A stretch of 64,000 bases of DNA from Chthoniobacter flavus Ellin428 (GTDB taxonomy: Bacteria; Verrucomicrobiota; Verrucomicrobiia; Chthoniobacterales; Chthoniobacteraceae), in contig NZ_ABVL01000011.1 of assembly GCF_000173075.1 (NCBI RefSeq), positions 1 to 64,000 on the forward strand, in the 5' to 3' direction. The translations under genes were made by a program, and so were the position numbers. The notes below the pieces were generated by a model, which was not told where the DNA came from, made no database searches, and was given only the letters and a program-made list of their open reading frames with translations. Positions within the stretch are counted from its first letter, which is position 1. Each line of letters begins with the position of its first letter. This document shows, one piece after another, positions 3,405 to 61,974 of the stretch.

Positions 3405-3866
3405 TCAGGCGACGTTGACCGCGATCTGCTTCGGCTTGGCTTCCTCGGCTTTCGGCAGGTCGACCGTGAGGATTCCGTCCTTGTAGGAGGCGCTGACCTT
3501 GGTGCTGTCCACCGTGGCGGGGAGGGTCACGCTGCGGTGGAACTTGCCGAAGTAGCGTTCGCTGCGGAAGGACTCGCCCTCTTTCGACTCGTGCTCCTGC
3601 TTGCGTTCGCCCGAGACAGTGAGGACGCCCTTGTCGAGAGAGATGTTGATCTCGTCCTTGTTCAGACCTGGCAACTCGACTTTGACGACCAGGTTGTCCT
3701 TGTCATCGAAGACATCCAGCGCCGGGGACCAGCCGCTGAACAGGCCGCTATCGCGGCTCGGCCACGAGAAGTCGAACAAACGGTTCACTTCGTCGCGCAG
3801 GGAAGCCAGACGATCGGACGAGGACCAGTTGGGTACTTGCGGGAATTGGTAACGGATAATGCTCAT
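3405..3866 (-). CDS. Small heat-shock protein, Hsp20/alpha-crystallin family
   Basis: 153 residues from the ATG at 3866; a longer upstream reading to 4040 exists but has no family similarity. N-terminal arm RLASLRDEVNRLFDFSWP is typical of class A-like bacterial sHsps. The alpha-crystallin domain has ALDVFDDKDNLVVKVELPG, the YFGKFHRSVTLP strand, GILTVDLPKAE, and a KQIAVNV tail with the I-x-V motif. First gene of a two-gene sHsp pair; the two proteins are paralogues that could co-assemble (inference). The upstream gap 3867-4079 holds a short perfect palindrome but no clear HrcA/CIRCE site. Confidence 0.93.
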   Translation of the reverse strand: MSIIRYQFPQVPNWSSSDRLASLRDEVNRLFDFSWPSRDSGLFSGWSPALDVFDDKDNLVVKVELPGLNKDEINISLDKGVLTVSGERKQEHESKEGESFRSERYFGKFHRSVTLPATVDSTKVSASYKDGILTVDLPKAEEAKPKQIAVNVA

Positions 3867-4020
3867 AGGTTGGAATTGGTGAAGTTGGTTTTTGGTTTCT
3901 TCAGTTTCCTTGTCGAGCTTGGACAGTGCCACCGCTTTTCCTGCCGCAATTTTTATCCATAAATCGCTACAGATGTGGGATTTGTACCACGATTTCGAAA
4001 CGCAATCCGCTCGCCGAAAA

Positions 4021-4035
4021 GAGTCATATTGACTC
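4021..4035. promoter_or_regulatory. Palindrome upstream of the sHsp genes
   Basis: GAGTCATATTGACTC is a perfect 6-3-6 inverted repeat about 155 bp upstream of the start of the first Hsp20 gene, in the gap between it and the GspF-like gene. It has the size of a dimeric regulator operator. It does not match the CIRCE consensus. Function is inferred only from position and symmetry. Confidence 0.25.
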
Positions 4036-4079
4036 AGCAACGGCCGTGAGATAACGCACGCGACAGCGCCGATTTGGCG

Positions 4080-5112: not shown

Positions 5113-6147
5113 ATGCAAGACGAAGAATTCATGCGAGCGGCTCTGGCCGAAGCACGCCGGGGACTGGGCCAGACCAGCCCCAATCCGGCGGTGGGCGCAG
5201 TCATTGTGCGCGCAGGGAAGATCATCGCGCGTGGGTATCATCACCGCGCCGGATTGCCGCATGCGGAGATCGAAGCCTTGCGCGCTTTGCCGAAGCCGGC
5301 GCTGGCCAGGGGCGCGACGATCTACGTCACGCTGGAACCATGCTCGACGCATGGACGCACGCCACCGTGTGTGGAAGCGATCATCGCCGCTGGCTTCCGG
5401 CGCGTGGTGATTGGGACGATCGATCCGAATCCCTCCCACGCCGGGCGTGGAGTGAAGCTGCTCCGCGACACGGGGATTGCTGTCACCACCGATGTGCTGG
5501 AAGCGGAATGCCGCGCGCTGAACGCGGCGTTCAATCACTGGATCGTGACGAAGATGCCATTGGTCATCGCCAAAGCCGGGATGTCCCTTGATGGGCGGAT
5601 CACGCGCCCGCCGGGAGAAGGCCAGTGGCTCACGAATGCCGTCGCGCGGAAGGATGCGCATCGGTTGCGCTCGCAGGTCGATGCGATCCTCATCGGCGCT
5701 GAGACATTGCGACAGGATAATCCCCGGCTCACCGTGCGCGGCGTGCGCGGAGCGAGACAGCCCTGGCGGATCGTTATTACCCGCAGTGGGAAATTACCGA
5801 AGGAGGCGCACCTCTTTACGGACGAACATCGCGAGCGGACGCTGGTCTATCGCGAAAAATCATTGCGCACCGTTTTGCGCGACCTTGGCAAACGGCAGAT
5901 CACCAGCGTGATGATCGAGGGCGGTGGCGGAGTGCTCGGCGAAGCCTTCGACCGGCGGCTCGTGCAGCGCGCGCACTTTTATCTCGCTCCTTTGCTCTGC
6001 GGTGGACCCGCAGTGGTCGTGAAAGGACTCGGCGTCGGGTCGAATGCGGAAGCCGCCACGATTCGCAACGCCACTTACACGCGCCTGGGTGACAACCTTT
6101 GTCTTACCGGCGAAGTGGAATATCCGGCCCCTGTTCCCGCGGCGTAA
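5113..6147 (+). CDS. ribD: Riboflavin biosynthesis deaminase/reductase RibD
   Basis: 344 residues. Bifunctional enzyme of riboflavin synthesis: deaminates the pyrimidine intermediate and reduces the ribose side chain with NADPH. The N-terminal zinc deaminase domain has HAEIEAL (H about residue 50) and PCSTHGRTPPC (about residues 76-86). The C-terminal reductase domain has KAGMSLDGRI, NAVARKDAHRLRSQVDAIL and IGAETLRQDNPRLT, plus a VMIEGGGGVLGEAF stretch. Length is usual. The 31-bp upstream gap is too short for an FMN riboswitch and none is visible. Confidence 0.95.
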   Translation: MQDEEFMRAALAEARRGLGQTSPNPAVGAVIVRAGKIIARGYHHRAGLPHAEIEALRALPKPALARGATIYVTLEPCSTHGRTPPCVEAIIAAGFRRVVIGTIDPNPSHAGRGVKLLRDTGIAVTTDVLEAECRALNAAFNHWIVTKMPLVIAKAGMSLDGRITRPPGEGQWLTNAVARKDAHRLRSQVDAILIGAETLRQDNPRLTVRGVRGARQPWRIVITRSGKLPKEAHLFTDEHRERTLVYREKSLRTVLRDLGKRQITSVMIEGGGGVLGEAFDRRLVQRAHFYLAPLLCGGPAVVVKGLGVGSNAEAATIRNATYTRLGDNLCLTGEVEYPAPVPAA

Positions 6148-12943: not shown

Positions 12944-13165
12944 CAGGAGGTCTCTGGGGAGCGCACTCGTCCCGAGTGCTGGTTTCGGCGTCTCGCCGAA
13001 ACGAACTTCTTCTGCGCCCTCACAGATATTGTCCGTTGCCTTGGAGAAGGAGGTGGGAAAAAGTCCGCGAAGGCGAGACGCCTTCGCCAGCACTCGAGAC
13101 CGAAGAGGCGGAGGGGAATAGTGGGGGTAGGTTGAAGGGTGAGCGTGCGCTCCCCGGAGCTCCTG
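12944..13165. repeat. Repeat family B, copy 1 (terminal inverted repeats)
   Basis: About 222 bp. Left end CAGGAGGTCTCTGGGGAGCG (12944-12963), right end CGCTCCCCGGAGCTCCTG (13148-13165), inverted. The interior contains GTTTCGGCGTCTCGCCGAAAC and GCGAAGGCGAGACGCCTTCGC, two perfect small hairpins. A second copy lies at 61737-61901, right behind the reverse transcriptase. No coding capacity. It fills the gap 12894-13235. Confidence 0.7.
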
Positions 13166-16575: not shown

Positions 16576-16657
16576 TTCTTAATCTTACTCTTAATCCTAA
16601 TCTTAATCTCGGCCTTGCCGGAGAGAGTAAGATTACGATTAGGATTAAGATTAAGAA
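16576..16657. terminator. Inverted TTAATC-repeat hairpin between convergent genes
   Basis: Left arm 16576-16610 (TTCTTAATCTTACTCTTAAT...) and right arm 16623-16657 are imperfect reverse complements built from TTAATC units, with a 12-nt loop. It lies between genes that end toward each other (16561 and 16681), so a bidirectional terminator is a reasonable reading. The right arm does not end in a pure T-run on either strand, so efficiency is unclear. Confidence 0.5.
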
Positions 16658-33824: not shown

Positions 33825-33913
33825 GGCAGTCTCTGCCAAATCGCAGAGCGTATTGCCGCACGAATTGCGTGTGGCGATGTGTCGCGGCTGCGTTTTGGGG
33901 TGCGGGGCTGCCG

Positions 33914-34140
33914 CCTAAGCATTCCCCACATCTTTGCTCGGTTTAGGGACAGGGGGAAAATCGGCTGCGGCTCACTGGGAGGGGGCGACTTTCCAGTCGC
34001 CCTGCGTCGCGGAGCGACGCCCTCAAAGAGAGGCGCTGCGCGCATTGGGTTTTCGGTCAGCGACTGGGAAGTCGCCGCTCCCAGTGGCGCCATCCCCTTC
34101 GATATCTAAACACCGAGCAAAGATGTGGGTAATGCTTAGG
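33914..34140. repeat. Repeat family A, copy 2 (best-preserved ends)
   Basis: 227 bp. Left end CCTAAGCATTCCCCACATCT followed by TTGCTCGG (33914-33941), right end CCGAGCAAAGATGTGGG followed by TAATGCTTAGG (34113-34140): a 28-bp terminal inverted repeat with one mismatch. The core matches copy 1 and runs in the same direction. It lies between convergent genes; no T-run follows, so I treat it as a dispersed element, not a dedicated terminator. Confidence 0.8.
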
Positions 34141-34206
34141 CTGCTGCGCCGCTTTTCGAGGACCGGCTCCCCGGATCGCACGGAAGCGCCGCTCTTGGAT
34201 TCGAAA

Positions 34207-45920: not shown

Positions 45921-45984
45921 AACCGACGCGCTAAACGGATACTTCGGGGTGGTGCCCAGGCTGGCATGGAGTGCGCCGTTGGCG

Positions 45985-46212
45985 CCTAAGCGTTACCCAC
46001 ATCTTTGCGCGGTGTTCAGACGTCGAAGGGGATGGGGCCACTGGGAGCGGCGACTTCCTAGTCGCTGACCGAAAACCGATGCGCGCAGCGCCTCTCTTTG
46101 AGGGCGTCGCTCCGCGACGCAGGGTTTTTTCTAGGAAGTCGCCCCTCCCAGTGAGCTACGGCCGTATTACCCCTGGTCCTAAATCCGAGAAAAGATGTGG
46201 GTAATGCTGAGG
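45985..46212. repeat. Repeat family A, copy 3 (reverse orientation)
   Basis: 228 bp. Ends CCTAAGCGTTACCCACATCT (45985-46004) and AAAAGATGTGGGTAATGCTG (46191-46210), inverted. The core is the reverse complement of copies 1 and 2 (GGCGACTTCCTAGTCGCTGA, then CGTCGCTCCGCGACGCAGGG). It fills much of the 648-bp gap 45861-46508; the rest (46213-46508) shows nothing recognisable and may hold the antiporter promoter. Confidence 0.8.
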
Positions 46213-46508
46213 TTGGCGCGCCGGGGGCTATTCGTTACGCGTCTCCACTCCAAAGCCGAGCGATGAAAAGGAAAGCGGCGCCTGGCCCGTATGGTGAGCA
46301 GAAATATCGTAAATTTCTAGCGTCCACCAGAGCGGGGAGGGGCGATTTTTTCGGAGCCGCAACCGCTTGATGGGAAGTTTTATGCGGTGCTGCGCCCTGT
46401 CCGGAGCGAGTCTTTGGTGCCCTCAATCGGTCGACATCGGAACAATCTACGATTAAAGTTGTAGGAATTCGCCGAAAGTACTGCTGACATCCCGCTCCCT
46501 GACATTTG

Positions 46509-56134: not shown

Positions 56135-56214
56135 GGATAGGAGGAATAGGAGAAATAGGAAGAATAGGAATGGTGGGACTCCTATAACTCCTATTCTTCC
56201 TATTTCTCCTATCC
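56135..56214. repeat. Palindrome (GGATAGGAGAAATAGGAAG type)
   Basis: GGATAGGAGGAATAGGAGAA...ATAGGA (56135-56169) and TCCTATTCTTCCTATTTCTC...CC (56189-56214) are reverse complements apart from an extra AATAGGAG unit in the left arm. It lies between the VOC gene and the retron operon and could terminate the former. With repeat B copy 2 it brackets the retron cassette. Confidence 0.7.
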
Positions 56215-56329: not shown

Positions 56330-58108
56330 ATGCCTTCCACCCCGGAGAACAGCCGCAGCTCCATGCTTCTGGTCGAGGATTGTTTCGCGTCGCAGGACGC
56401 GAGATTCCTCGAAGCCTTGCGCGGCGTCACCTCCGCGAAGTGGCTCGCCAGCTTTGCCGATCGCTGGAAGAAGGACCCACGTCCCTGGGCGAGACAGCAG
56501 ATCTTCGCTTATCTCGATCTCCCGCTGAGTTGCCCCGGGCACCAGCCCATCGTGAAGCGCCTCTTCAAGCAAGCCGAGGAAAACAAGGATACCGAGCTGA
56601 TGGGCGCCTTTCTCGCGGCGTTCGATACGCTCGTCCGCCGCGTCCGTCGCCAGAAATGGCATTGGGATCGCGCGACGCGTCAATCTTACACGACAGAGCG
56701 CCTCGCCACGCCACGCGATACCATCCCCCTCGATGGCCAGACGCGCACCGTCTCCACTTACGACTATCGCGCGCGCAAGATGATCACGCGACAGGAGCCC
56801 ATGCGCATGCCGCGCCACGGGCGTCTCTTCTCGCAACGCACGCGTTACTATCTGCACCGCCGGGTGTGGCGCTTTTTCCGCTGGCTCGGTTATCGACAGC
56901 CCGCGGACTATCCCGCGGCTATCGCGCCGGCGTTGAAGCATTATCGCGACGAAGACCTGGAGAAGGGGGAGCACATCCTCGATAGCTGGTCGCTGCTGAA
57001 CATCTGCTTCCGCGGTAGTGAGGCGCTGGCCTTCAAGCCCGATCACATCGGCCTCGCCGAGGGGCACTCGCTTGCTGAGTTAAAAGCCGCACCGCGTTTT
57101 GCCAAAGCCTGGGAAACGCCCGAAGCCGCGCGGGTGTTGCATGGAGTGATCATCGGCGCGCACTCGCAACTCGTGCGCATGTGGGCGATGGAGATGTTCC
57201 GGCGGGTTGGTAAATCGCTCGAGCTCACCCCAGTGGAATTGCTCGCCTTGCTCGATCATGAAGACGAGCGTGTGCAGCAATTCGGCGCGGAGCTTTTCGA
57301 AACGCAGAGTGGCCTGGAGAAGCTTTCCGTCACCACGTGGCTGGACCTGTTGCGCACGAAGAATCTGACCGCGCTCGCTACCCTGTGCGCCGCTTTCGAA
57401 AAGCACGTGACCGGGGAACGCCTCGCGCTCGCGCAGTGCATCGAGCTCACGTGCGCCAGGCCGGTACCGGTGGCGAAGCTCGGTTTCCGTTTCCTGCAAG
57501 CGCGCTCGATTTCTCCCGATGTGACTCCGGCTCTGGCCGCGTTGGCCTCCGCGCAATGCGCCGTGGTCGCCGGTGAAATCGCTACCTGGACGCTCGCTCG
57601 CCTCGGCACCGCGGAGGCTTACAACCTCAATGCGGTGAGCCGCTTTTTCGACAGCCTCCTGCCGGAAACCCGCGCGGCCGCGTGGACCTGGCTCGTGGCC
57701 GAAGGTTCGCTCGGCTACCGCGACTCCGCGCTGTGGAGCCGGCTCGCCGAGACACCTTTTGAAGATTTGCGGCTGAAGATGGTCGACGAACTCGAGCGCC
57801 GCGAGCGTCAACCCGATCCCGATCGCCTCGCGCAAGTCTGGTCCGCGGTGCTGCTCGGCGTGCATCGTGGCGGACGTCAGAAAGCCAAGGCCGTGCGACA
57901 GCTCGCGGAAGCGATTGCCGCCGAACCCGCGCGCTCGCCGGCGCTGCTGCCCGTGCTGGTGGTGGCCATCCGCAGCGTGCGCGGTCCGGAAATGCGCGTC
58001 GGTCTCGCGTCGGTCATGACCCTGCTTGCGCAACGCCCCGAGCTGATCGATGCAGTGCGGGCGAACTTGCCGGAATTGAAATTCACCACGGAGGCGGCGA
58101 CGGCATGA
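56330..58108 (+). CDS. ARM/HEAT-repeat protein of the retron cassette
   Basis: 592 residues, soluble, no signal peptide. The C-terminal two thirds are a string of short amphipathic helix pairs as in ARM/HEAT repeats: HSQLVRMWAMEMFRRVGKSL, LLALLDHEDERVQQFGAELF, GLEKLSVTTWLDLLRTKNLT, LAALASAQCAVVAGEIATWT, TRAAAWTWLVAEGSLGYRDS. The N-terminal ~200 residues are basic and less repetitive (WDRATRQSYTTERLATPRD; RTRYYLHRRVWRFFRWLG). Its ATGA stop/start overlaps the WH-SWIM gene by 4 bp. An ARM protein plus a WH-SWIM protein next to a retron RT is the composition described for type XIII retrons, where they are the putative effector partners; molecular activity is not known to me. Confidence 0.8.
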   Translation: MPSTPENSRSSMLLVEDCFASQDARFLEALRGVTSAKWLASFADRWKKDPRPWARQQIFAYLDLPLSCPGHQPIVKRLFKQAEENKDTELMGAFLAAFDTLVRRVRRQKWHWDRATRQSYTTERLATPRDTIPLDGQTRTVSTYDYRARKMITRQEPMRMPRHGRLFSQRTRYYLHRRVWRFFRWLGYRQPADYPAAIAPALKHYRDEDLEKGEHILDSWSLLNICFRGSEALAFKPDHIGLAEGHSLAELKAAPRFAKAWETPEAARVLHGVIIGAHSQLVRMWAMEMFRRVGKSLELTPVELLALLDHEDERVQQFGAELFETQSGLEKLSVTTWLDLLRTKNLTALATLCAAFEKHVTGERLALAQCIELTCARPVPVAKLGFRFLQARSISPDVTPALAALASAQCAVVAGEIATWTLARLGTAEAYNLNAVSRFFDSLLPETRAAAWTWLVAEGSLGYRDSALWSRLAETPFEDLRLKMVDELERRERQPDPDRLAQVWSAVLLGVHRGGRQKAKAVRQLAEAIAAEPARSPALLPVLVVAIRSVRGPEMRVGLASVMTLLAQRPELIDAVRANLPELKFTTEAATA

Positions 58109-59805
58109 ACCTTTCCTTTGCCTACCTCGGCCGCAGTGCGCTCACCGACGGCTCGCTCTCATTCTCTCCGAATCTCTCCCGCGAACCGGTGGCCTTTGAT
58201 GCCGCATTGCGTCACACCTTGCGCTTTCGTGAGGCCATCTCGGCGCTGCACGATGTCGTCATCAGCGACCACCGCTACAAGAAGCGCGACAAAAGCGCTT
58301 ACGAGGCGTGGAAAGCTTCCGAGGCCGCTCGCGTGCGCAATGTCCGCAGCGAAGCGTTGAAGCAGGCCAAGGCCGACGTTTACGCCAAAAGCCGGGTGCC
58401 GCTGCCGCCGGATTTCGAACGCCAGCACCATCGCCTCCTCAATCAATATTGGGATGCCCGCCGAAAATACGCCGACCATTTGCGCCAGACGGACATGGAG
58501 CTCTGGCGGCTGCTCATGCCGTGTGATCCCGTGGTGACGGTGGCCAACGACGTGGTCTTTTTCGAGTGCTTCAGCGCGGATGAATCGAGCTACGGCTGCC
58601 TGACCGTGAATCGCGACGATGGCTTCGGCCCGAGCGAGCAGCTCCAGCTCGGCACAACCAATGTCGATTACTCGTGGGATCTCTATCACGAGTTCCAGGC
58701 GCTGCGCTCCTATCGCGAAACGCGTTTCCGCGTGGACCCGCAAGGTTTCGACGTGGCCACGCACGGGCGCATGGAATATCGCGAGGAAAAGATCGATCTT
58801 CCCGATGGCTGGCTGCGCGGCTTCATGCAATTGCAAAGCGCGATGACGCTGCCGATGCGCCGCGTCACGCTGACCCGCGAAGCGCTTTACTCCGTGATGG
58901 TGTGGCTGAAGCGCCATCGCGCCCGCACCAGTCCACGCGCCTTGCGCTTCGAGCGTCACGGCGGAGGCCTCACGCTCGTCCTCGAGCCGTGGGAGACGCG
59001 CATCCCGGTTTACGGCGCCACGGCCGAAGCGGATTGGGCCGAGCCCGTGCGCATCTGGGGACGCCAGCGCTTGCTCGCGCTCGCGCGACTGTTGCCTATG
59101 ATCGAGAGCGTGGATGTCTACCTGCTCGGCACCGGCTTCCCGAGCTTCTGGGTGGCGCGCATGGGCGAGATGCGGCTCACCCTCGGCCTCAGCGGCTGGA
59201 CGGCGAACGATTGGACGCACGGCTCCGCGCTCGACATGCTCGCACCGCCCGCGCCGGCCAGCGCGGTGCAGATCGAGACCGTGGCGCAGCACATGCGCAC
59301 CGTTCGCGCGCAATCTTTCAACGACATCGTCCGCGCGGTGAATCATCCGCCTTCCTTCGTCGCTTCGGCGTTGAAGCATCTCGCCCATACCGGTCAGCTC
59401 ATCGCCGATCTCGACGCGGGCTTGTATCGCTGGCGGCAGATCATGCCGCGCGTCCTCGGCGAGGCCGAGCTCGGGCCGGAGAATCCGGAATTCGCCGCCA
59501 TGCACGATTTGCTCGTGCGCAAGCGCGCGATCGTCGAAAGCACCGTCGCCGCGCCGAGTGGCGGTTTTATTTTCACCGGCAAGGTCGAGTCCAAGCCGGT
59601 CGAGGTCCTCGTCGATACCGATGGCCGGATCAAGCGTGGACGCTGCCTATGCGGGCATCATCAACGCGCGGGCATTCGGATGGGTCCGTGCCGGCATTTG
59701 CTGGCCTTGCGCTGGCTCGCTTTGAATCAGACGCCCTCCACCGGTGGAAACGACGAATGGTTTGCCCGCCTCCGCGCGCAAGCTGGCGAGAAAGGAGGCG
59801 CGTGA
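58105..59805 (+). CDS. Winged-helix + SWIM zinc-finger protein of the retron cassette
   Basis: 566 residues. The C-terminal SWIM zinc finger is clear: RGRCLCG...GPCRHLLAL with C514-x-C516-x12-C529-x-H531. Before it, residues ~388-448 (ETVAQHMRTVRAQSFNDIVR; HPPSFVASALKHLAHTGQLI; DLDAGLYRWRQI) form a winged helix. The N-terminal ~380 residues have no family I can name but contain a helical region (YKKRDKSAYEAWKASEAARV) and a beta-rich middle. WH and SWIM domains bind nucleic acid, so a role in recognising or holding msDNA or target DNA is plausible. Coupled to the ARM gene by a 4-bp overlap; its stop is 14 bp before the predicted retron RNA. Confidence 0.85.
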   Translation: MNLSFAYLGRSALTDGSLSFSPNLSREPVAFDAALRHTLRFREAISALHDVVISDHRYKKRDKSAYEAWKASEAARVRNVRSEALKQAKADVYAKSRVPLPPDFERQHHRLLNQYWDARRKYADHLRQTDMELWRLLMPCDPVVTVANDVVFFECFSADESSYGCLTVNRDDGFGPSEQLQLGTTNVDYSWDLYHEFQALRSYRETRFRVDPQGFDVATHGRMEYREEKIDLPDGWLRGFMQLQSAMTLPMRRVTLTREALYSVMVWLKRHRARTSPRALRFERHGGGLTLVLEPWETRIPVYGATAEADWAEPVRIWGRQRLLALARLLPMIESVDVYLLGTGFPSFWVARMGEMRLTLGLSGWTANDWTHGSALDMLAPPAPASAVQIETVAQHMRTVRAQSFNDIVRAVNHPPSFVASALKHLAHTGQLIADLDAGLYRWRQIMPRVLGEAELGPENPEFAAMHDLLVRKRAIVESTVAAPSGGFIFTGKVESKPVEVLVDTDGRIKRGRCLCGHHQRAGIRMGPCRHLLALRWLALNQTPSTGGNDEWFARLRAQAGEKGGA

Positions 59806-59819
59806 GGTAAAGACGATTT

Positions 59820-60045
59820 GAGAGTGGCGGGCTGGTCTTCACTGAGACCACCATGCTGCGGCGTTCCGCCGCGGTTGCGTTTGCCCAGCCATGCTTCCCC
59901 AAGGCCGTTGTTCGTTTGGCACCGCCCGCTACCGTCGCGGGCGGCCAAGACAACCCAAGGGTTCCGCCCACGACGGTAGCGGGCGGTGCCTTGGTTAACG
60001 GTCTCGGTCCTGAGCGAGTAGTCAGTGAGACCACCCGCCACTCTC
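59820..60045 (+). ncRNA. Candidate retron msr-msd non-coding RNA
   Basis: 226 nt between the WH-SWIM stop and the reverse transcriptase, the usual place for msr-msd. The ends pair: GAGAGTGGCGGG...TGGTCT...CACTGA (59820-59845) with TCAGTGAGACCA...CCCGCCACTCTC (60022-60045), a 24-bp helix with bulges at C59832 and T59839, as expected for a1/a2. In the msr half: hairpins TGGTCT/AGACCA (59833-59838/59845-59850, competing with a1/a2) and GCGGCG/CGCCGC (59858-59863/59867-59872). In the msd half: 27-nt arms 59918-59944 and 59964-59990 with one mismatch and a 19-nt loop, flanked by CCGTT/AACGG. The branching G is not certain. It could instead be an unrelated palindromic repeat. Confidence 0.6.
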
Positions 60046-60069
60046 CTTCTTCTCCTCGACGCGAGTTTC

Positions 60070-61725
60070 ATGATTCCCCTTGGCGCCATTGCTGGAGCCC
60101 TCGTCGTGCTCTTGAGGCAGCTTTTCAAAGGCTCGAAGCCCCAACCCCGGCGATCGTCTCCGCCTCCTCCGGTACCGCGTCCGGGGGATCGGCCATACAC
60201 GCCCGGCGCGCCACCGCCGATCCCTCCGGCCGCTGGAGCCGCTCGGCCGGCCCAACCGTCGCCGCCGCGCTCGGCACCTCCGCGGAGCACAACGCTGAAT
60301 CTCGACGCCGGCCAGTTCACGCCGGTGAGCGCCGAAGAAGCGAAGAAACAGGCGCGCGGCATCAAGTGGAATTGGGCGAGTGTCAATTATGACCGGCGCG
60401 ACCAGATTCCCGCGCCCACCCAGCCGCGCACCTTGCTCATCGATCGCGCGATGGTCGCGCAAGGTCTGCTCACGCCCGAGCAACTCGTGGAGATTCATGA
60501 TGTGGGCGCGAAGATGGCCGAGCTGCGGCCCGATCTCGCCGGTATCGGCAATGTGGCCGACCACGCCGTTGCCGCGGACCAGGAGGAACGTCGCCGGCGC
60601 AAGGAACAGAAGATCGCCGAGTCCGCCGAACGCCAACGGAAGCACGCCGAGGCCGTCGCGCAGCGGCGCGCCACCGATATCATTTTCCTCGGCCGTGGCG
60701 TCTCCGGCGGCCTCGCGGATCGCCGGGCGAATGTCGAGAAGCTCCAGCAGCTTAACCTGCCGGTGCTGGCCACTTCCGGCGATGTCGCCAAAGTGCTCGA
60801 CCTCGAAATTTCGCGTCTGCGCTGGCTCGCCTTTCACAGCGAGGCGTGTGCCGTCACGCATTACGTGCGGTTCACCATTCCCAAGAAATCCGGCGGCACC
60901 CGCGAGCTCGCCGCGCCGCACCGCGAGATGGCGCGGTGCCAGCTCTGGATCAAGCTCAACATCCTGGATCGCATTCCGCTGCACGAGGCCGCCCATGGAT
61001 TCGTCGCCCATCGCGGCACGATGAGCAACGCCGTGCCACACGTCCGCCGCGATGTGGTGGTGAATGCCGATCTGAAGAACTTCTTCCCGACGATCACCTT
61101 CCCGCGGGTGAAGGGTATCTTTCAAGAACTCGGCTACTCGCCCGCCGTCGCCACCATCCTCGCGCTGCTCTGCACCGAGTGCCCGCGCCAGCGCGTGACT
61201 TACGCCGGCCGTGAGTTGCACGTCGCGACTGGCCCTCGCGCCTTGCCGCAGGGCGCCTGCACCAGTCCCGCGCTTTCCAATCTCGCCGCGCGTGGCCTCG
61301 ACGCCCGCCTCACCGGACTCGCCCGCAAGCTCGGCTGGGATTACACGCGCTACGCCGACGACCTGACCTTTTCCACCAGCGGCGCACCCGCGCAGAAAAC
61401 CGCCTGGATCCTCGCCCGCCTTCGCCACATCGCGCAGGAAGAAAACTTCACGGTCAACGAAACCAAGACGCGCGTGCAGCGTCCGAGCGCGCAGCAGACG
61501 GTCACCGGCATCGTCGTCAACAAACGCCCCAACGTTCCGCGCGAAACCGTGCGCCGCCTGCGGGCCATTCTGCACCGGGCGAAGACCGAAGGGCTCGCCG
61601 CGCAAAACCGCGAACAGCACCCGCACTTCGCCGCCTGGGTCGGCGGCATGATCGCCTATATGCAAATGGTGAATCCTGAACGCGGCAAAAAGCTGAAGGC
61701 GGAATTCGACGCACTGCCAAAGTAA
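60070..61725 (+). CDS. Retron-type reverse transcriptase with N-terminal extension
   Basis: 551 residues from ATG 60070; a GTG at 60025 is in frame but lies inside the a2 arm. RT motifs, numbered from that ATG: NAVPH 320-324 (retron NAxxH, region X), NADLKNFFP with catalytic D334, PQGACTSP 393-400, YADD 428-431 and VTG 478-480 (retron region Y). So it is a retron RT, not a group II intron or DGR enzyme. The first ~100 residues are unusual: a hydrophobic helix PLGAIAGALVVLLRQLF and a Pro-rich stretch (SSPPPPVPRPGDRPYTPGAP, PPIPPAAG), then a Glu/Arg/Lys-rich helical part (EERRRRKEQKIAESAERQRK). It makes msDNA from the adjacent RNA; the extension suggests membrane or partner docking (inference). 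Confidence 0.93.
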   Translation: MIPLGAIAGALVVLLRQLFKGSKPQPRRSSPPPPVPRPGDRPYTPGAPPPIPPAAGAARPAQPSPPRSAPPRSTTLNLDAGQFTPVSAEEAKKQARGIKWNWASVNYDRRDQIPAPTQPRTLLIDRAMVAQGLLTPEQLVEIHDVGAKMAELRPDLAGIGNVADHAVAADQEERRRRKEQKIAESAERQRKHAEAVAQRRATDIIFLGRGVSGGLADRRANVEKLQQLNLPVLATSGDVAKVLDLEISRLRWLAFHSEACAVTHYVRFTIPKKSGGTRELAAPHREMARCQLWIKLNILDRIPLHEAAHGFVAHRGTMSNAVPHVRRDVVVNADLKNFFPTITFPRVKGIFQELGYSPAVATILALLCTECPRQRVTYAGRELHVATGPRALPQGACTSPALSNLAARGLDARLTGLARKLGWDYTRYADDLTFSTSGAPAQKTAWILARLRHIAQEENFTVNETKTRVQRPSAQQTVTGIVVNKRPNVPRETVRRLRAILHRAKTEGLAAQNREQHPHFAAWVGGMIAYMQMVNPERGKKLKAEFDALPK

Positions 61726-61736
61726 GGCGCGGCGCG

Positions 61737-61901
61737 ACAGAGCTCCGGGGAGCGCATGCGTCCCGCGTGCTGGCAACGGCGTCCCGCCGTCGCGGACTTC
61801 CATCCCGCTCGGCTGCACGAGAACTTTGAATCGTCAGCGAATCAAAGTTCGTTTCGGCGAGACGCCGAAACCAGCACCCGGGACGGGCGCGCTCCCCAGC
61901 G
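61737..61901. repeat. Repeat family B, copy 2
   Basis: About 165 bp, starting 12 bp after the reverse transcriptase stop. Left end GAGCTCCGGGGAGCGCATGC, right end GGGCGCGCTCCCCAGC, inverted; the interior has GTTTCGGCGAGACGCCGAAAC as in copy 1 (inverted orientation) and a GGCGTCCCGCC hairpin. Shorter than copy 1. Could end transcription of the retron operon through its hairpins, but no T-run is present. It lies in the gap 61726-61974. Confidence 0.65.
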
Positions 61902-61974
61902 ATTCGCCGCCACCCTTTCTCCTCGTCTCCACGAGGTTGGCGCGGCACGCTCAGACTCGGAATTCAACCCCGGA

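Follow-up and report, generated by a model that had tools for sequence, protein, structure and literature searches.

A putative msr-msd RNA in a type XIII retron operon of Chthoniobacter flavus, and a sliding-clamp-like fold predicted for its SWIM partner protein

The retron operon and its class

The segment 59820-60045 of the window (the whole 64,000-nucleotide stretch of Chthoniobacter flavus Ellin428 DNA that was analysed) is very probably a retron non-coding RNA of the msr-msd kind, belonging to a type XIII system whose operon would run from 56330 to 61725 in the order HEAT-ARM, SWIM, ncRNA and reverse transcriptase (RT). A preliminary description, made from the letters of the sequence, had proposed the msr-msd reading, and it is upheld by the type XIII RT directly downstream, by covariation in both main helices, by homologous RNAs at like loci and by the presence of a single copy in the genome. 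At the level of sequence, the comparisons below establish the structure of the RNA, its conservation through compensating changes and its linkage to the type XIII gene set.

All features of the operon lie on the forward (+) strand. Its first gene (56330-58108) encodes a 592-aa protein of HEAT-like helical repeats without a WGR domain, which matched the PADLOC model HEAT-ARM_XIII at 2.7e-251 and, more weakly, WGR_XIII at 1e-20. The second gene overlaps the first by 4 nt (58105-59805, 566 aa) and matched SWIM_XIII at 2.4e-171, and the RT gene (60070-61725, 551 aa from an ATG start) matched RT_XIII at 1.1e-157, with RT_other second at 8e-109. The RT_XIII match and the SWIM_XIII and HEAT-ARM_XIII genes upstream of it therefore place the system among the type XIII retrons: an RT of the type XIII clade, a SWIM zinc-finger partner and a HEAT-ARM partner are all present, each matching a type XIII model, and the RNA falls into a family common to many such loci. 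Compared with type XIII retrons generally, the Chthoniobacter locus sits in the HEAT-ARM branch, which is without the WGR domain. Since the HEAT-ARM and SWIM genes overlap and the 5' end of the RNA lies only 15 nt downstream of the SWIM gene, whose stop is at 59805, a single transcript is likely.

A search of genomes of the same family for a close copy of the RT found none: the RTs recovered there share only 38-39% identity with it, which points to a patchy distribution of the operon in its lineage. The plasmid search gave one RT-level match, in Methylobacterium only. Immediately 5' of the operon lies a perfect 24-bp inverted repeat (56146-56212) built of AGGAATAGGA-type repeats, which is a candidate terminator or boundary element.

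Architecture of the RNA

The preliminary description had reported a 24-bp end helix with two one-base bulges closing 59820-60045, and a 27-bp hairpin with one mismatch in the 3' half; the coordinates of the first are exact to the base, and those of the second (59918-59944 paired with 59964-59990) are equally exact. In the end helix, which is supported by both fold and covariation, the 5' arm a1 (59820-59845) contributes 24 paired and two bulged bases, and the 3' arm a2 occupies 60022-60045. Its outer 12 bp (59820-59831/60034-60045) are followed by the bulged base 59832, a middle run of 6 bp (59833-59838/60028-60033), the bulged base 59839 and an inner 6 bp (59840-59845/60022-60027). The a1 arm closes on a GAG (59844-59846) that is invariant in 10/10 sequences of alignment A4, and G59846, the first unpaired G after a1, may, by analogy with characterised retrons, be the guanosine that primes synthesis and bears the 2'-5' branch.

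Downstream of a1 stands a 9-bp msr hairpin (59855-59875; GCTGCGGCG/TTC/CGCCGCGGT), also backed by covariation. Between it and the msd lies a conserved block of single-stranded type, CATGCTTCCCC (59890-59900), whose type-wide form is CAYGCNTCMC. The msd region (59899-60007) comprises a lower helix (59899-59909/59997-60007) around the 27-bp stem and its loop (59918-59990), and the cDNA template would start close to a2 (about 60021) and end at some point 5' of the msd stem. The features of a retron layout, namely an a1/a2 end helix, an msr hairpin, a long msd hairpin and an RT alongside, are thus all found together.

Folding with an RNA program, as had been suggested beforehand, gave a minimum free energy of -155.7 kcal/mol for 59820-60045, compared with -101.3 +/- 4.7 kcal/mol in dinucleotide shuffles (z -11.6), and 0/200 shuffles were as low. 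In block-shuffled windows, inverted repeats did not exceed 13 bp. Unrelated long palindromes also occur in the real window, at 33913-34141, 16583-16656 and 56146-56212.

Compensating changes in the helices

Compensating changes across relatives, which the preliminary description had proposed to seek in both helices, were found, and both helices covary strongly. In alignment A2, made by MAFFT from sequence only and holding 8 rows (7 distinct), 92.6% of cells could pair, and 29/64 pairs had both partners substituted. The covariation score of this alignment was 0.419, compared with 0.186 +/- 0.020 when shuffled and 0.070-0.108 when the pairing partners were slid; the two-sided changes included 6 pairs of the end helix and 19 of the 24 pairs of the msd stem. 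A wider, model-fitted set of 48 distinct rows, whose alignment leans towards the model, had two-sided change in 42 of 43 pairs, and within that set the msr hairpin changed on both sides in 8 of its 9 pairs.

As an alignment-light control, each arm was paired with its own partner and with foreign partners across 30 RNAs. The a1/a2 helix reached a mean of -46.8 kcal/mol with its own partner and -24.8 kcal/mol with foreign ones, the own partner ranking first in 26/30; for the msd stem the corresponding means were -56.4 and -27.7 kcal/mol, with the own partner first in 28/30. The invariant positions are instead the GAG that closes a1, the CATGC-TCCC block and some stretches of the msd flank.

The reverse transcriptase

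The RT begins with a hydrophobic N-terminal helix (residues 2-18) and a Pro-rich linker, followed by an RT domain that carries NAVPH at 320 (NAxxH, region X), YADD at 428 and VTG at 478 (region Y). Its start is relevant to the boundary of the RNA: as the preliminary description had pointed out, a2 reaches past the GTG at 60025, which lies inside that arm. The ATG at 60070 stands 24 nt beyond a2. In relatives that have the RNA before the RT, the start codon also falls 3' of a2 and the RT opens with a short hydrophobic N-terminus, which supports the start at ATG 60070. The retron motifs of the RT are kept in the WGR-type loci L014 and L015, and there the RNA fold is alike.

Among solved structures, the nearest relatives of the RT are the chains of the retron Ec86 RT (2e-62); group II intron and DRT enzymes are much weaker matches. 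The RT domain aligns with that of Ec86 (Eco1) over its full length, and both systems have an a1/a2 helix, an msr hairpin and a long msd hairpin; the Chthoniobacter enzyme differs in its extra N-terminal hydrophobic helix and Pro-rich linker, and the partner proteins differ too. The partner of Ec86 is a nucleoside deoxyribosyltransferase-like effector. These comparisons bear on the reading that the RNA serves a different sort of defence RT (DRT-like) as template and is copied without a 2'-5' branch, for example through protein priming or repeated copying. This we consider improbable. Structured RNAs do adjoin RTs in DRT2-like systems too (PMC12039810), and the long N-terminal extension, absent from Ec86, would be compatible with such an enzyme; the RT is, however, far nearer to retron RTs (Ec86 2e-62, RT_XIII 1e-157) than to Drt2/Drt3 (1e-7), it possesses the retron motifs NAxxH and VTG, and an a1/a2 helix with a single long msd hairpin is the layout of a retron RNA.

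Position of the RNA in related loci

Among related loci drawn from GTDB genomes, SWIM and RT genes occur together in L016, L017, L018, L020-L024, L026-L030 and L039, nearly all of which have the HEAT gene as well, and the hosts are Verrucomicrobiota, Planctomycetota and Myxococcota-type genomes. An RNA of the same layout, 215-226 nt long, lies between SWIM and RT in L016-L018, L020, L023 and L026-L028. In five further loci it follows the HEAT gene and precedes SWIM, instead of lying directly before the RT: L021:3932-4109, L022:3957-4134, L024:2062-2239, L030:3613-4043 and L039:3652-3831, those of L022, L024 and L030 having been located by a covariance model. In L039 (Rhodopirellula baltica BR-MGV) the RT reading frame stops soon after YADD, and the gene may be broken.

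The covariance model was built from 10 sequences. Outside its training set it matched L022, L024, L030 (two matches) and L032 at E values of 1e-24 to 1e-35, and weaker matches were obtained in some 25 further loci, nearly all of them within about 1 kb upstream of an RT or upstream of a SWIM gene. Two loci carry tandem copies of the RNA with different arms (L030:3613-3791 and 3864-4043; L040:5191-5375 and 5440-5624). The literature that we searched on type XIII retrons contained no description of the RNA layout, its relocation or its tandem copies. The alignment thus offers a covariation-backed template for a retron type on which the literature searched holds little published work, and one whose predicted msDNA can be tested directly; the covariance model can serve to search further genomes for type XIII RNAs.

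The relocation of the RNA also speaks to the view that it is a cis-acting leader of the RT (an attenuator, riboswitch or thermosensor), with a TGGTCT/AGACCA hairpin as its alternative state. The RNA does end shortly before the RT start, and the alternative hairpin that the preliminary description had noticed is present in the Chthoniobacter sequence (59833-59838/59845-59850). The RNA switch that it was proposed to form with a1 does not hold up, since the hairpin is not conserved: the two segments pair in 52.4% of cells across relatives compared with 50.6% in shuffles, with one two-sided pair, and the hairpin is missing in the closest relative, L016. An Rfam 15 search of the RNA returned no family and no riboswitch or leader match, only a chance match to a plant microRNA. 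An RT leader, moreover, would not move between sites of an operon as this RNA does in the five loci with the RNA between HEAT and SWIM, and it therefore acts as a separate module; we regard the leader as very unlikely.

Copies and repeats in the genome

The whole RNA is single-copy in the 7.85-Mb genome, the next match of the covariance model having an E value of 0.6, and the msd stem pattern recurs with fewer than 3 mismatches at one other genomic place. The preliminary description had named a dispersed 226-bp repeat as what would speak against its reading. A rival of this sort would be a palindromic element that landed by chance before the RT; such elements do exist in the genome (three in the window, and one just past the RT with a copy elsewhere), as do two short fragments of the RNA (27/27 and 31/33 nt), but this idea is rejected because the RNA is single-copy in its genome, its stem pattern has just the one other near-match, and its homologues accompany retron RTs in distant phyla.

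One of the two fragments of the putative msr-msd RNA is a 27/27-nt copy of 59988-60014 on contig C35 (L005:1501-1527), followed by a GAAGTCG-like a2 sequence and, some hundreds of bases further downstream, by the ORF of a group II intron maturase; it may be a remnant of a second retron RNA. The other is a 31/33-nt copy of 59961-59993, in the 3' arm of the msd stem, on contig C61 (L003:1501-1533), behind a terminator-like hairpin. We considered these fragments as possible traces of cDNA insertion; the genomes of L016 and L030 hold no such fragments. Compared with viral contigs, the msd stem gave 34 exact 16-mer matches, about what chance may give at that length, and no match was obtained with a 22-mer taken from the msd 3' flank.

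Two families of palindromic elements were seen in passing. A dispersed family of about 235 bp is represented at 932-1161, 33902-34152 and 45967-46223 (76-87% identical), and an element of about 150 bp just downstream of the RT (61760-61902) has a copy at 12951-13100 that is 75% identical.

Partner proteins and a predicted clamp fold

The SWIM protein was assessed through PADLOC, an AF2 model, Foldseek searches of PDB and viral structures and alignment A6. It is predicted to consist of a PCNA-like two-domain clamp fold (residues ~30-362), a winged-helix-like part (~375-443) and a C-terminal SWIM zinc finger with the CxC..CxH ligands C514, C516, C529 and H531. The model, built from 18 sequences, has a mean pLDDT of 73 and a pTM of 0.70. 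Foldseek matched it to 494 PDB chains at E <= 0.001 (best 9e-9); among the best 50 of these 494 matches nearly all are PCNA, with TM by target mostly 0.55-0.71, and matches to viral PCNA and DnaN proteins were also obtained. The element order of the second domain (strand 252-256, helix 258-270, four strands, helix 320-332, three strands) fits the processivity fold, and the first domain carries a coiled-coil insertion (64-129).

The predicted likeness to sliding clamps therefore lies in this two-domain processivity fold. In contrast to PCNA, the SWIM protein has only ~10% identity to it, gives no profile match, bears the coiled-coil insertion and adds the winged-helix-like part and the SWIM finger. 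Its channel-type helices, again unlike those of PCNA, are basic in domain 2 only, where K269, R270, R320, R322 and R328 are conserved, and those of domain 1 are not basic. A profile of the 18 SWIM proteins searched against PDB sequences found no clamp, and a Pfam search of the protein returned SWIM only and no clamp domain. Since the structural matches come without sequence-profile support, the clamp fold is put forward as a structurally well-supported prediction, which does not establish the protein as a member of the clamp family. In the SWIM protein of L020 (3739-5424) the zinc-ligand cysteines are lost.

The AF2 model of the HEAT-ARM protein consists mostly of helical repeats (pLDDT 84), and a fold search of the PDB gave a weak and generic HEAT/ARM resemblance only. 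Comparison of the SWIM and HEAT-ARM proteins with solved structures by sequence yielded nothing usable. No relevant report of a sliding clamp as a retron partner was found in the literature searched. The RNA appears to belong to an already known kind, and the modelled clamp-like SWIM fold is the part for which we found no precedent among retrons.

A proposed mechanism

In characterised retrons, RT, RNA and RT-DNA hold a toxic effector, and phage triggers its release (PMC12548924). By analogy, a1 and a2 would pair and close the RNA, and the RT would bind the msr hairpin and prime on a G just after a1 (candidate G59846); copying would start close to a2 and proceed leftwards along the msd, through the 27-bp stem. 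The product (msDNA) would be RNA and DNA joined by a branch, its DNA part folded into a long hairpin. Together with the RT, this msDNA would form a complex in which SWIM and HEAT-ARM stay inactive, and a phage that interferes with the DNA or with this complex would set off an abortive response. The production of msDNA, its branching, and the guarding, killing and defence that may depend on it are all carried over from those better-known systems.

The predicted sliding-clamp fold of the SWIM protein suggests the DNA replication machinery as a possible site of action for the guarded or executing step. We tentatively extend this, with more doubt than confidence, to type XIII retrons as a whole: they might be a clamp-based defence in which a SWIM clamp, partnered by a HEAT or WGR-HEAT protein, is held or loaded by way of the msDNA hairpin and the RT is tethered by its tail (at membrane or clamp), so that phage replication forks are monitored or blocked without a classical enzymatic toxin. 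If true, the SWIM clamp fold would give a first concrete idea of how type XIII retrons act, and a DNA clamp would join the known retron partners; the fold is informative in this respect because neither partner protein has an obvious enzyme domain.

The RT may itself be tethered through its hydrophobic terminal tail, as a prediction. Inspection by eye of type XIII RTs (L014-L095) indicated that in many of them a flexible linker is joined to a short terminal stretch of hydrophobic or aromatic residues, at the C-terminus in most. Outside the HEAT branch these tails are C-terminal (PWWKFW, KKWWKLF, PWWDVL or a transmembrane-like helix), and in the HEAT branch they are N-terminal and either MGLFGDIFRTLFGR-like or transmembrane-like (L020). 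Because some tails are plain transmembrane helices, anchoring in the membrane is the more economical reading, and a clamp-binding peptide is possible. The tail of the Chthoniobacter RT (60070-60124) has a mean hydropathy of 1.85 over residues 2-18.
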